A DNA stretch of 5,701 nucleotides from Rhodococcus sp. IITR03 (lineage in GTDB: Bacteria; Actinomycetota; Actinomycetes; Mycobacteriales; Mycobacteriaceae), in contig LATQ01000134.1 in NCBI GenBank assembly GCA_001017865.1, forward strand, positions 1 to 5,701. Direction: 5' to 3'. Below, piece by piece: positions 1-5,701 of the stretch. The first letter of the stretch is position 1. Each line of letters starts with the position of its first letter. The notes under the pieces are model-generated. The model saw nothing but the letters and a program-made list of their open reading frames with translations, was not told the DNA's origin and searched no databases. Made by a program: the position numbers and the translations under genes.

Positions 1-847
1 CGGGACACTCGGTGATGTCGGCCGGCACCGCGCGGACGGTCGCCGGCGCCTGGGCGACATGCTCGGCGTCGCCCCGACCCGCGTGGCGTTCGCCGGGATC
101 GACCCGAAGGTGCTCGTCGACGCGCAGGAACGTCTCACGGCCCGGATCCGCGCTGAACGCGACCCGGCGACATGGGGTGAGATCGCCACCGATTCGATGG
201 CCTTCGAACCGTGCGTGGACGGGACCGTGCTCCCGGGCCGGCCGATCGACCTCGTGGGGAAGGGCGCGGGATCCGACGTCGATCTGCTCATCGGCCACAA
301 CGACGACGAGATGACGTTGTTCTTCGTGCCTCTCGGAGTCGACGGACTGCTCGACGAGGCCGCTGCGCGCGGACTCGCCGCCGCCTACGGCCTCACCGAT
401 CCGGAGGCGTTCGACGCCTACCGTCGCGCTCGGCCCGATGCTCGTCCCGGCGAGACGGCCATGCACATCGTGCGCGACTGGATGTACCGCATCCCGGTGC
501 TCCGCGTCGCGGAAGCGCGTGCCGCACACGACGCCGAAACCCATGTCTACCGGTTCGATTGGAAGTCGCCGCTGTTCGACGGCCGGCTGGGCGCGACCCA
601 CGCGCTCGACATCGGTTTCGTGTTCGACACTCTCGATCTCCCTCAGGCCGCGGCGCTCGCGGGATCCGCACCTCCGCAGGAACTGGCGACGCGGATGCAC
701 CGGGCGTGGGTGGACTTCGCGACCACGGGCTCGCCGGGATGGTCGCCGTACGGGGACGAACGCACCGAGATGCTCTTCGGTGACACGTGTGCGACCGTCG
801 ACGACCACGAGGCCGATCTGCGAACGCTGTGGGACGGAATTCGCTGA
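1..847 (+). CDS. Type B carboxylesterase (para-nitrobenzyl esterase-like), C-terminal part, frame interrupted
   Basis: This is the C-terminal portion of an alpha/beta-hydrolase serine esterase of the COesterase (type B carboxylesterase) family, which hydrolyses carboxylic esters. The gene runs off the left edge, so the nucleophile elbow with its serine is not visible. Two other triad members are recognisable by family pattern: the acid in GHNDDEMTLF (Glu codon 308-310) and the histidine in GATHALDIGFVF (His codon 599-601). The tail AWVDFATTGSPGW is typical of the family's last helix. The stop is TGA at 845-847. The reading frame is broken near 47/48. Bases 3-47 encode GHSVMSAGTARTVAG in one frame and bases 50 onward encode LGDMLGVAPTR in another; restoring one C (GGC-CGC-CTG) joins them into the expected family sequence. 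This looks like a read error rather than a true mutation. Natural substrate unknown. Confident in the family, less so in exact activity. Confidence 0.85.
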   Translation, partial: GTLGDVGRHRADGRRRLGDMLGVAPTRVAFAGIDPKVLVDAQERLTARIRAERDPATWGEIATDSMAFEPCVDGTVLPGRPIDLVGKGAGSDVDLLIGHNDDEMTLFFVPLGVDGLLDEAAARGLAAAYGLTDPEAFDAYRRARPDARPGETAMHIVRDWMYRIPVLRVAEARAAHDAETHVYRFDWKSPLFDGRLGATHALDIGFVFDTLDLPQAAALAGSAPPQELATRMHRAWVDFATTGSPGWSPYGDERTEMLFGDTCATVDDHEADLRTLWDGIR

Positions 848-851
848 CCGA

Positions 852-876
852 GTTTGATCTTTGTTCCCACGGGTAG
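852..876 (+). promoter_or_regulatory. Candidate SigB/SigF-type stress promoter of katE
   Basis: GTTT at 852-855 is followed after 15 bases by GGGTAG at 871-876. This matches the general-stress sigma factor pattern known for actinobacterial SigF/SigB and Bacillus sigma B (GTTT, 14-17 bases, GGGTA). Transcription would start around 883 and leave a leader of about 60 bases before the katE ATG at 945. Monofunctional catalases belong to such stress regulons in other Gram-positive bacteria (for example katE under sigma B in Bacillus subtilis), which fits. The last hexamer base is G rather than the T often seen. The match is by eye, without a scored matrix. Confidence 0.55.
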
Positions 877-883
877 TCGTGGG
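866..883. other. Small hairpin (CCCACG / CGTGGG) after the esterase stop
   Basis: A perfect 6-bp inverted repeat, CCCACG at 866-871 and CGTGGG at 878-883, encloses the 6-base loop GGTAGT. It lies 18 bases downstream of the esterase stop. No T tract follows, so it is at best a weak terminator for the esterase. It also covers the GGGTAG element of the candidate katE promoter, so the pairing could be incidental. Confidence 0.35.
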
Positions 884-944
884 GAAGACGTGTCCAGCCC
901 CGGATATCCACTCGACAGACGACAGCACACGAATCGGAGTTCCC

Positions 945-3060
<2,116 letters not shown>

Positions 3061-3067
3061 CAGACCT

Positions 3068-3118
3068 CACCCGAGCTCGTCTTCCGAAGTTCGGGTGCCC
3101 CAAGTTATTCTTTCGTTA
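3068..3118 (+). terminator. First, weaker hairpin terminator downstream of katE
   Basis: CACCCGA at 3068-3074 pairs perfectly with TCGGGTG at 3091-3097 across a 16-base loop. It is followed after a few bases by a T-rich stretch, GTTATTCTTTCGTT, at 3104-3117. It begins seven bases after the katE stop. The stem is short and the T tract is not immediately adjacent, so alone it would be a weak terminator. Together with the next hairpin it makes a tandem pair. Confidence 0.45.
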
Positions 3119-3121
3119 CCT

Positions 3122-3164
3122 CTGGCCGCAGCTGATTCTCATCGCTGCGGCCAGTTGTTATTTA
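3122..3164 (+). terminator. Strong intrinsic terminator of katE
   Basis: A perfect 11-bp stem, CTGGCCGCAGC at 3122-3132 and GCTGCGGCCAG at 3144-3154, encloses an 11-base loop and is followed directly by TTGTTATTTA. This is a textbook Rho-independent terminator on the plus strand, about 60 bases after the katE stop. On the minus strand the stem is followed by an A-rich rather than T-rich stretch, so it is not an obvious intrinsic terminator for the convergent monooxygenase, although the stem could still slow its transcript. Confidence 0.85.
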
Positions 3165-3189
3165 CGCCCAGGTCAGGGCACGAATCGCA

Positions 3190-4228
3190 TCATCGGGTGA
3201 ATCGCGCTGCCGCGCCCACGAACGGGTCGCGCAGAGCCGTGAACCGGCGTGCGGTCGCCACCCGGGCAAGGGTTCGGGACGCGCGCACCGCCGCTGGGTG
3301 CGGCGCCGCCGGGTGCGGTCGTATCGCTCCAGCGCCTCGGTCACCGGATGCTCGGACAGCAGGACCGCGAGTGTCGCGCCGTCGATCATCGCCTCGCACG
3401 CGCCGCGACCGAGATTCGGTGCCATCGCGTGAGCGGCGTCACCGATCAGCGCGACGTTGCCGTGGACGAAGGACGGCAGCGGGGGCGATTCGTACAGATC
3501 GTGGTGCAGCACGTCGGCGGGGTCGATCCGATCGAGCACGTCGCGCACGGCCGGGTGCCAGTCGCGGTAACGCTCGCGCAGTTCGTCGATGTTCCCCGCT
3601 CCGCCGGCCGGGGCGCGCACGGCGGCGAACCAGTTGGTCAGATCCCCGTCACGCGGGGTGATGCCGAACAGCGCGCCCGGTCCCCACGACTCGCTCGTCG
3701 TCGGCACCGTGCCCGATACCCAGCCGCGCCACGCCGAGTAGCCGGTGTACACGGACGGTAGGCGGGACCGAACAGCCGGTCGCGCGTCGCGCTGTTGATG
3801 CCGTCCGCTGCGATCACGACGTCGTAGGCGGCGAGATCGGGCAACCCGGGTGCCGGCGCTCCGAACCGGACGGCATCGGACGGAAGCCCCTCGGCCAGGA
3901 TCGTGAGCAGTTTCGGCCGGGAGAGAAGGACGACCGGTCGCGCCAAGGTGCGGATGCGTCCGATCACCCGCCCGTCCCATCGTAGGAAGGCCGCGCCGTC
4001 CTGCAGCACGCCGAGCTTCTCCACCTGCGCCGAGACCGGAGCCGCAGCCGGCGGTGGTCAGGGCGTCGAGGGCTTCGGCCCACATGCCGAGTGCGGTGCC
4101 GTCTCCGGAAGGGAGGGTGCGCGTTCGAAGACGTCGACGTGCCAGTCGCGCCGGACGAGCGCGTTGGCGACGGTGAGCCCGCCGATCCCTCCGCCGAGGA
4201 TCGCTGCTTTGCCGTGTCGTGCGGTCAT
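3190..4228 (-). CDS. FAD-dependent monooxygenase (PHBH/UbiH-type group A flavoprotein), several apparent frameshifts
   Basis: Single-component NAD(P)H-dependent flavin hydroxylase family; substrate not identifiable. Motifs appear in order: Rossmann FAD motif ILGGGIGGLTVANAL near the N-terminus ending in VFERAP, the mid-protein DG motif VIAADGINSATR, and the GD motif ALIGDAAHAMAPNLGRGACEAM. ATG is at 4228-4226 and TGA ends at 3190. No single frame covers the gene. Four junctions need missing Gs (minus strand) restored: about 4098-4100 (PETG-TALGMW), 4047-4049 (two bases, or one extra base between there and about 4024), about 3752 (AYRP-VYTGYSAWRG) and about 3290 (RTQR-AVRASRTLARV). With five bases restored the gene is 1044 bp and encodes 347 residues, slightly short for the family because the segment before the DG motif is compact. 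It is divergent from the TetR gene and probably repressed by it. No Shine-Dalgarno is seen, and a -10-like hexamer lies six bases before the ATG, so the mRNA may be leaderless. Confidence 0.85.
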
Positions 4229-4234
4229 GACCCG

Positions 4235-4263
4235 ACCGTACTACGGATGTAGTGTCGTGTCAC
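4235..4263 (-). promoter_or_regulatory. Candidate promoter of the monooxygenase
   Basis: Read on the minus strand, GTGACA (4263-4258) matches the -35 consensus TTGACA at five of six positions. It is followed by exactly 17 bases and then TACGGT (4240-4235), a TANNNT -10 element. Six bases separate the -10 from the ATG at 4228, so the predicted transcript begins at or very near the start codon. One operator palindrome fills the spacer and the other covers the -35, which is a direct layout for repression. Confidence 0.55.
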
Positions 4264-4276
4264 TACTCCTGTAGTG
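4239..4276. promoter_or_regulatory. Two tandem palindromic operators, CACTAC-N4-GTAGTG, probably bound by the adjacent TetR
   Basis: Site 1 (4239-4254) is TACTAC-GGAT-GTAGTG, with one mismatch in the outermost pair. Site 2 (4261-4276) is CACTAC-TCCT-GTAGTG, a perfect palindrome. The centres lie 22 bases apart, about two helical turns, so two repressor dimers could bind one DNA face. The two sites also form one large imperfect inverted repeat (4240-4254 against 4261-4275). They sit between divergent start codons and overlap the predicted promoter elements of both genes, as usual for TetR-family autoregulation. The pairing is read directly from sequence; binding by the neighbouring TetR is inference from position and symmetry. 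Confidence 0.75.
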
Positions 4277-4283
4277 AATCTCG

Positions 4284-4289
4284 TAGGAT
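4284..4289 (+). promoter_or_regulatory. Candidate -10 element (or ribosome-binding site) of the TetR gene
   Basis: TAGGAT at 4284-4289 is a good actinobacterial -10 hexamer and sits six bases before the GTG at 4296, the geometry of a leaderless transcript. The embedded AGGA at 4285-4288 is instead an acceptable Shine-Dalgarno seven bases from the GTG, so the two readings compete. No convincing -35 is seen; the expected position falls in operator site 2. Confidence 0.4.
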
Positions 4290-4295
4290 CGAGTC

Positions 4296-4880
4296 GTGAC
4301 CGACGAACGCCCTCGGGTGGCAACCGACAAGCGCACAGCGGTTCTCGACGCTGCGATCCATCTGGTGGGGACCGAAGGGCTGCGCGCCCTCACCCACCGC
4401 CGCGTCGATGCCATGGCGGGTGTGCCGGCCGGATCCACGTCGAACTACTTCCGCACCCGCCAGGCCCTCGTCGAAGGAGTGCTCGACAGGCTCCTCGAGC
4501 AGGACCGGGTCCAGCTCGCGGCGATCGGCGCCGCGTTGCCGGGCGACGCGCGTGAGCTCGAAGACCTGATGCACGGTTATGTGATGTTCGTGACGGGGGA
4601 CGACCTCGTGCGAACCCGCGCACGCTTCGCGATGTTCGTCGAGGCGATGGCGACGCCCGAACTGCGTGCCGGGGTCGAGACCCGCCGCAGCGAACTGCGC
4701 GGATGGATCGGGACGGTGCTCGCGGGCCTCGACGTCGACGATTCCGTCACCGCCGCGCGGGTTCTCATCGACTACCTGGACGGACTGATCCTGCATCGCT
4801 GCACCTCGCACGACGACGGACCGGACCCGCGCGACGGCGTGTCCCGGATGGTGCGAATGCTCCTTTCCACGGCAGGGTGA
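4296..4880 (+). CDS. TetR-family transcriptional repressor
   Basis: A 194-residue protein of typical TetR size and the only gene here with an unbroken frame. The N-terminal DNA-binding domain spans about residues 10-58: helix 1 (DKRTAVLDAAIHLVGTEG), then the helix-turn-helix RALTHRRVDAMAGVPAG with recognition helix STSNYFRTRQAL at about 47-58. The rest (about 60-194) is the helical ligand-binding and dimerisation domain, too divergent to name an effector. Start chosen: GTG 4296, because the coding pattern begins there, the start-proximal TAGGAT/AGGA fits, and an earlier start would run into the operators. The gene is divergent from the flavin monooxygenase with 67 bases between start codons, and tandem palindromes fill that gap. 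It therefore probably represses both genes and is released by a substrate or related small aromatic compound (inference). What it senses is unknown. Confidence 0.93.
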   Translation: MTDERPRVATDKRTAVLDAAIHLVGTEGLRALTHRRVDAMAGVPAGSTSNYFRTRQALVEGVLDRLLEQDRVQLAAIGAALPGDARELEDLMHGYVMFVTGDDLVRTRARFAMFVEAMATPELRAGVETRRSELRGWIGTVLAGLDVDDSVTAARVLIDYLDGLILHRCTSHDDGPDPRDGVSRMVRMLLSTAG

Positions 4881-4989
4881 CGCCCGCGATTCCGGTGCGT
4901 TACGGCTGCGTTTCCGCAGGTGGGCGGGAGAATAGGGCAGGCTTGCTTGCATTACCCCCCGCCACCTGGCATATCGTTCATTTCGAAGA

Positions 4990-5013
4990 CGGTGGGACCA
5001 CGACGTCCCACCG
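4990..5013. repeat. Perfect 9-bp inverted repeat (CGGTGGGAC / GTCCCACCG)
   Basis: CGGTGGGAC at 4990-4998 pairs with GTCCCACCG at 5005-5013 around the loop CACGAC. It is a strong GC-rich stem 110 bases after the TetR stop and about 170 bases before gltB. There is no T tract after it on either strand, so it may be a U-less actinobacterial terminator for TetR, a leader structure for gltB, or a protein site. I cannot tell which. Confidence 0.5.
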
Positions 5014-5089
5014 GTCGCCGGATCCACGCTCGTGCTGCCGAAAAAGGCACCCGCACCGTCGCGGATGAGCGGATACTGGCGATGTCGAA

Positions 5090-5113
5090 GGTATCGGGCA
5101 CCCGGCCGATACC
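5090..5113. repeat. Perfect 8-bp inverted repeat upstream of gltB (GGTATCGG / CCGATACC)
   Basis: GGTATCGG at 5090-5097 and CCGATACC at 5106-5113 are separated by eight bases, 68 bases before the gltB ATG. The arm spacing suits either an RNA hairpin in the gltB leader or a dimeric regulator's operator. It does not resemble the GlnR or AmtR nitrogen-regulator boxes as I know them. No regulator can be assigned. Confidence 0.5.
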
Positions 5114-5181
5114 CGTCTACGGCAGTAGATGGCCATCAGCGCTGCTGGTCGTCGGTGCTATCGCATCAACGAAGGCTAGGT

Positions 5182-5701
5182 ATGACTCATCTCCCCGGGC
5201 CTCGAGGCTCTACCACCCGGCGAACGAGCACGACTCCTGTGGCGTCGCGTTCGTCGTCGACATGCACGGTCGTCGCAGTCGCGACATCGTGGAAAAGGCG
5301 ATCACCGCCCTGGTGAATCTCGAACACCGCGGTGCAGCGGGAGCGGAACAGAACACCGGCGACGGCGCCGGCATCCTGATCCAGGTCCCCGACGCCTACT
5401 TCCGTGAGGTCGTCGACTTCGATCTTCCCGCCGAAGGCGCATACGCGACCGGTATCGCGTTCCTGCCCAAGGACACAGCCAAGGCCGACGCCGCGGCCGC
5501 CGAGGTCGACCGCATCGTCGCCGAAGAGGGCCTCGAGGTCCTCGGCTGGCGCGAGGTGCCGATCGACGAGTCCGAGCTGGGCTCCATGGCCAAGGACGCC
5601 ATGCCCACCTTCCGGCAGATCTTCATCGCCTCCGGCGCCCGCGCGCTCACCGGCCTCGAACTCGAGCGCCGCGCGTACGTCGTGCGCAAGCGCACCGAGG
5701 C
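5182..5701 (+). CDS. gltB: Glutamate synthase (GOGAT) large subunit, N-terminal part, one apparent frameshift
   Basis: The first ~173 residues of the large subunit (about 1500 residues in the family), which transfers the amide of glutamine to 2-oxoglutarate to make two glutamates, working with the small subunit GltD. The gene runs off the right edge. ATG 5182 follows GAAGG at 5171-5175. The visible part is the class II glutamine amidotransferase domain. A short propeptide precedes the nucleophile Cys20 (codon 5238-5240) in [20 protein letters not shown], followed by [11 protein letters not shown] and [13 protein letters not shown], which shape the glutaminase site. Cleavage before Cys20 would expose the catalytic N-terminal cysteine, as in other GltB proteins. 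The ATG frame ends in nonsense after nine codons because one G is missing at 5206-5208 ([19 protein letters not shown]); the downstream frame is then open to the window end. This is a key nitrogen-assimilation gene, so a read error is more likely than real loss. Confidence 0.93.

Follow-up and report, generated by a model that had tools for sequence, protein, structure and literature searches.

Frame-breaking base losses in four genes of a Rhodococcus contig: very probably, for the most part, errors of sequencing or assembly

We found that four of the five genes in the window, by which we mean the whole 5,701-nucleotide stretch of DNA that was analysed, are broken at eight sites, and that these breaks, or most of them, are very probably deletion errors of sequencing or assembly; this assessment includes the case in which one or two of the sites are real. 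Such errors, falling mostly in short G/C runs of an unpolished long-read or otherwise indel-prone assembly, would create the eight breaks, and the organism most likely carries all five genes intact, with the missing bases presumably present in its genome. Several error mechanisms fit equally well, among them deletions in long reads and compressions in capillary reads of an older kind. The breaks themselves are nothing biologically novel and their value is that of a warning only: automatic annotation of this record would give four pseudogenes or split frames, among them a catalase and a glutamate synthase that are very probably working.

Five genes lie in the window (Table 1). A carboxylesterase gene, of which only the end is present, is followed by a long catalase gene; next come a flavoprotein gene on the minus strand, convergent with the catalase gene, and a TetR-family regulator gene, divergent from the flavoprotein gene, and the window closes with the start of gltB. 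Genes were named with Pfam on the separate window pieces and with Pfam and NCBIfam on the intact proteins of the most similar locus, L011. The esterase piece of the window matched residues 229-493 of the 493-residue L011 protein at 97% (tblastn). Catalase pieces in the window carried PF00199, PF06628 and PF18011, and the top NCBIfam match of the intact L011 catalase was catalase HPII, with a score under that model's cut-off. Both PF01494 and PF13450 scored over their cut-offs on the L011 flavoprotein, while none of the 25 NCBIfam models shown for this protein reached its cut-off, all matches lying far below. For gltB, PF00310 was observed on window 5208-5699, and PF00310 together with PF04898 on the L011 protein.

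The G+C content of the window is 65-73%. No tRNA genes were found in it, a comparison with Rfam gave no match up to E = 1, and neither of the two pairs of inverted repeats lying at most 60 bases apart is at a break. A search of a plasmid collection matched 410 records; among the 20 matches listed, all fell over the catalase part only and none covered 80% of the window. Five records of a phage collection matched, four on the catalase part and one on a short piece of the TetR gene, again with none covering 80% of the window. The listed plasmid matches and the phage matches thus give no sign of a plasmid or phage origin. The window is ordinary Rhodococcus DNA. Window base 2 and the last two bases (5700-5701) disagree with L011, the latter possibly as one extra base at the end, as if the window ends were contig or read ends. 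Window bases 1-2 and approximately 5699-5701 were left out of the substitution and loss counts, including a gap at 5699 that may instead be two mismatches.

Among named organisms the nearest relatives were five Rhodococcus, including R. sp. CH91 and R. gordoniae DSM 44689. The DNA search comprised 18 Rhodococcus genomes, one genome per species. The closest genome (G013, locus L011) was 99% identical over window 3-5699 in one unbroken block; the window comes from a strain of that species or one very near it. A second genome (G010, locus L012) was 96% identical over the same span, also in one unbroken block, and a third (G015, locus L013) was 91% identical over window 789-5699; alignment to L013 is poor over roughly the first 850 bases of the window, and gaps there were not counted. 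For comparison at the protein level, L011 proteins (for gltB the first 171 residues) were used as tblastn queries against 35 loci and the window, with loci collapsed by genome.

Global alignment of the window to L011 gave eight losses, all inside genes (Table 1). The alignment to L012 gave the same eight, with the loss at 4098 placed at 4100, and the alignment to L013 gave all seven of the losses it covers, two of them displaced by one or two bases. The initial annotation had read eight breaks from the window alone, at about 47, 1175, 1694, 3290, 3752, 4048, 4099 and 5207, and all eight were recovered; seven lie within about two bases of these positions, and the two-base loss lies some 21 bases from where it had been put. 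Its new position is firm because the window has no substitution relative to L011 between 3983 and 4592. The further claim that every loss removes a G or C beside another, always in a short G/C run, held for seven of the eight sites (six in runs of three, one in a run of two) and failed at 3289. There the base in the relatives is a single A, so that this site is not a G/C-run loss. In total nine bases are missing from 5701 (0.16%, about Q28).

Table 1. Genes, base losses and one further length difference in the window (positions in window coordinates; run lengths as in L011).
Feature	Position	Strand	Gene or setting	Details
Carboxylesterase, C-terminal part	2..847	+		about 265 residues after the break at 48; PF00135 on 59-844 and on the intact L011 protein
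Long (HPII-type) catalase	945..3060	+		705 aa in L011; three frames, breaks at 1174 and 1692
FAD-dependent aromatic-hydroxylase-like flavoprotein	3190..4228	-		347 aa in L011; breaks at about 4098, 4027, 3752 and 3289
TetR-family regulator, intact	4296..4880	+		PF17940 and PF00440; divergent from the flavoprotein gene; 99.5% over 194 of 194 L011 residues
gltB (glutamate synthase large subunit), N-terminus	5182..5701	+		break at 5205 (codon 9)
Loss, one base	48		esterase	G/C run of three
Loss, one base	1174		catalase	G/C run of two
Loss, one base	1692		catalase	G/C run of three
Loss, one base	3289		flavoprotein	lone A between C and G in L011 and L012; no G/C run
Loss, one base	3752		flavoprotein	G/C run of three
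Loss, two bases	4027		flavoprotein	C run, three long
Loss, one base	4098..4100		flavoprotein	G/C run of three; L012 and L013 differ beside the site
Loss, one base	5205		gltB, codon 9	G/C run of three
Length difference, one base	927		non-coding, before the catalase gene	L013 has the window form; L011 and L012 have the shorter form

The losses are concentrated in short G/C runs. Of the G/C runs that are three bases long in L011, 6 of 166 were shortened, compared with 1 of 636 runs of two, none of 1977 single G or C bases and none of the 35 runs of at least four; among A/T bases, 1 of 1361 single bases was lost and none of 218 longer runs was shortened. Runs of three or more G/C make up 644 of 5709 bases but hold six of the eight events (binomial p = 4.7e-5). 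All eight losses are in coding DNA, which accounts for approximately 5117 of the 5709 bases, and this is no more than random placement gives. Homopolymer undercalling, which the initial annotation proposed beside an unpolished assembly, is borne out only in part: it agrees with the predominance of G/C runs and sits less well with two observations. The lone A at 3289 is no homopolymer error, and it counts against an artefact of that kind. Undercalling driven by run length is also expected to strike the longest runs first, and the 35 G/C runs of four to six bases are untouched, although the difference from the runs of three (0/35 vs 6/166) is not significant (p = 0.59). At 927, where L013 also carries the window form, the difference in length probably reflects a true polymorphism.

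In the two closest relatives the genes are unbroken over the compared stretch. L011 carries the five genes without internal stops (493, 705, 347 and 194 residues, gltB staying open for 673 residues, up to where the locus ends), and in L012 each gene was recovered as a full-length single tblastn segment (gltB over its first 171 residues). The same queries against the window split the catalase into three collinear segments in three frames (residues 1-77, 77-250 and 251-705, at 97-100%) and the flavoprotein into segments in three frames; for the esterase and gltB, matching starts at the break or close to it, and the TetR regulator is whole. Across the wider set of genomes, gltB (first 171 residues) kept a single frame in 18 of 18. 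The flavoprotein did so in 15 of 17, the exceptions being G004, split elsewhere, and G008, where the fetched stretch stops within the gene. For the catalase the count was 14 of 16, with G003 and G005 split elsewhere and with G016 and G018, both counted among the 14, at an identity of only about 50%. The esterase was in one frame in 4 of 5 (G004 being split) and the TetR regulator in 22 of 22 matching loci.

Where other genomes are split, the positions differ from those in the window. The window is split at residues 77 and 250 of the catalase, 44, 68, 160 and 315 of the flavoprotein and 228 of the esterase, compared with catalase residues 264 and approximately 360 in G003 and G005, and, in G004, approximately flavoprotein residue 171 and approximately esterase residues 200 and 460. 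We looked for the window's own breaks in every genome with a fetched locus (one genome per species) and found them in none; shared breaks in close relatives had been named beforehand as one finding that would overturn an artefact. That three other genomes are split in the same genes does count against an artefact to some degree, as these splits may be errors too or such breaks may sometimes be real. In Rhodococcus sp. HNM0563 and SMB37 (L008, approximately 3211-3220; L009, approximately 3499-3512), single-base length changes split the catalase gene at two different places, either from assembly errors or from repeated loss of this catalase. A separate observation concerns L012, which near window position 4330, close to the start of the TetR gene, has 15 bases more than the window and L011, in-frame.

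The substitutions between the window and L011 bear on whether the breaks arose by evolution. We counted 53 coding substitutions, of which 40 are silent and 39 at third positions, and none creates a stop. The silent share (40/53) is well above the 28% expected without selection (p = 7.6e-13), which points to genes that evolved as working genes, under purifying selection in unbroken frames, although a loss of very recent date would look no different. The signs of a true pseudogene, nonsense substitutions or a neutral silent share, were absent from these 53 substitutions, as they would be also after a very recent loss.

The ratio of frame-breaking losses to substitutions was 8:54 for the window against L011 and 0:159 for L012 against L011 (Fisher p = 2.7e-5), where the control is this one pair and L012 is about three times as far from L011 as the window is. 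L012 and L011 also differ by a single in-frame indel, the 15-base one. Differences between the window and L011 are unevenly spread, with 36 in 3-1468 (2.5% divergence), 11 in 2613-2916 (3.6%), none in 1469-2612 (0%) and 7 in 2917-5699 (0.25%). The two near-identical tracts, 1469-2612 and 2917-5699, together hold only these 7 substitutions yet six of the loss events, so the losses track length and sequence context, as errors do, and not divergence, as real mutations would. The proposal of the initial annotation that the breaks are artefact and not biology is therefore upheld by the intact genes of the relatives at 99% and 96% identity over the compared stretch, the loss ratio, the purifying selection, a share of losses in coding DNA no higher than random placement gives and the unrelated functions of the genes struck.

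The uneven divergence from L011 over window 3-5699 is itself a mosaic of the pattern that strain recombination would leave. R. gordoniae (G002) and G009 both match the block with the catalase gene (870-3166) at 93% identity, and the block 3226-5699 at 80% and 85%, respectively; in both genomes approximately 4-5 kb lie between the two blocks.

Deletion errors could account for most sites and still leave one or two, such as 3289 or 1692, as true mutations or a mutable hot spot. This reading, which overlaps with the one we prefer, is unlikely. The loss at 3289 is unlike the other seven in kind, and its gene has lost bases at three further sites. A break like the one at 1692 is seen, at the protein level, in a public catalase fragment (P0001; 89% identical, on one 3486-base contig). 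We searched with the catalase piece whose end lies in the shifted frame and obtained 6382 matches; among the 120 listed, 1 carried the shifted motif and 78 the normal motif. The search covered fragment-length proteins only, with matches ranked by their fit to the shifted tail, and the single P0001 match is weak because the search favoured both. It speaks more for a spot where errors arise easily than for kinship, and a spot that really is mutable would fit as well. A window-specific 27-base pattern over 1692 had no matches in viral contigs. With 6382 matches to a single piece, catalase entries of fragment length are plentiful in protein databases.

Real frameshifts at all of the sites, through recent loss of function in four neighbouring genes or through a mutator slipping in short G/C runs, are very unlikely. 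Replication slippage also acts in G/C runs, where most of the losses fall, and the splits seen elsewhere in the catalase of two Rhodococcus genomes and in the esterase and flavoprotein of a third would lend this reading support if those assemblies are right. Slippage normally favours the longest runs, however, and these are intact; the window has eight frame-breaking changes to 54 substitutions, all of them losses and none accompanied by a nonsense change; the coding substitutions bear the mark of purifying selection; and glutamate synthase, a central enzyme, is struck as readily as an esterase. It is less probable again that a lineage in which deletions are much more frequent in G/C runs of three bases, but not in longer runs, lost four neighbouring genes including glutamate synthase within the time of a handful of substitutions. 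We rejected a real pseudogene cluster on the ratio of losses to substitutions, the purifying selection and the presence of the same lesions in no genome with a fetched locus. Translational recoding, in which programmed frameshifting would read the genes through their breaks, has nothing in its favour but the breaks themselves and was rejected as having a negligible chance of being correct, since orthologues at 96-99% identity are unbroken, the breaks fall in four unrelated genes with four of them in one gene, and no common slippery signal was seen by eye in their contexts.

Errors of sequencing or assembly, the preferred reading, have a described counterpart. A 2025 study of gene-fragmenting errors in long-read bacterial assembly (PMC12007338) reports that 69% of the errors kept were indels, that most of these indels were false deletions linked to homopolymers, a few deletions affecting non-repeated bases, and that annotated pseudogenes fell from 23.3% of genes before correction to 5.6% after. 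The window resembles the assembly described in that its losses, very probably false deletions, lie mostly in short runs of one base, the genes of relatives are intact and few missing bases strike many genes; the deletions at non-repeated bases resemble the loss at 3289. The two differ in that the commonest errors in that study (MinION) followed long A/T stretches, and those in the window fall mostly in G/C runs of three in DNA of high G+C. The draft genome of Rhodococcus sp. JCM 9791 (G004) is like the window in having both esterase and flavoprotein split, and unlike it in the positions. In its loci (L035, L004/L010) the esterase lies in three frames and the flavoprotein in two, and this draft may also be indel-ridden; a literature search for Rhodococcus sp. 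JCM 9791 found nothing.

Two non-coding stretches were also observed. The leader of gltB (window 4965-5184, 220 bases), an item worth keeping outside the finding on the breaks, aligns in 18 loci, one in each of 18 Rhodococcus genomes, with a mean column identity of 84%. RNAalifold predicted 55 pairs, 5 of them with both partners changed, and a stem whose loop varies is among the predicted elements; we consider it a candidate structured regulatory leader of glutamate synthase on this modest covariation. Rfam gave four matches on L012 and L023, all under the gathering scores, and a literature search on the leader found nothing. By eye, an ATG in the leader opens a 16-codon frame (window 5129-5179) whose stop codon, in the group to which the window belongs, closely precedes the start of gltB, and in L010 and L027 a one-base difference lets the same ATG read into gltB; this may reflect structure rather than a peptide. 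The second stretch (window 3081-3166), 3' of the catalase gene, contains by eye a G/C-rich inverted repeat followed by T-rich bases. In G004, G005 and G017, 85-113 bases match it at 84-90% identity, and it is probably a shared terminator, though a well conserved one.
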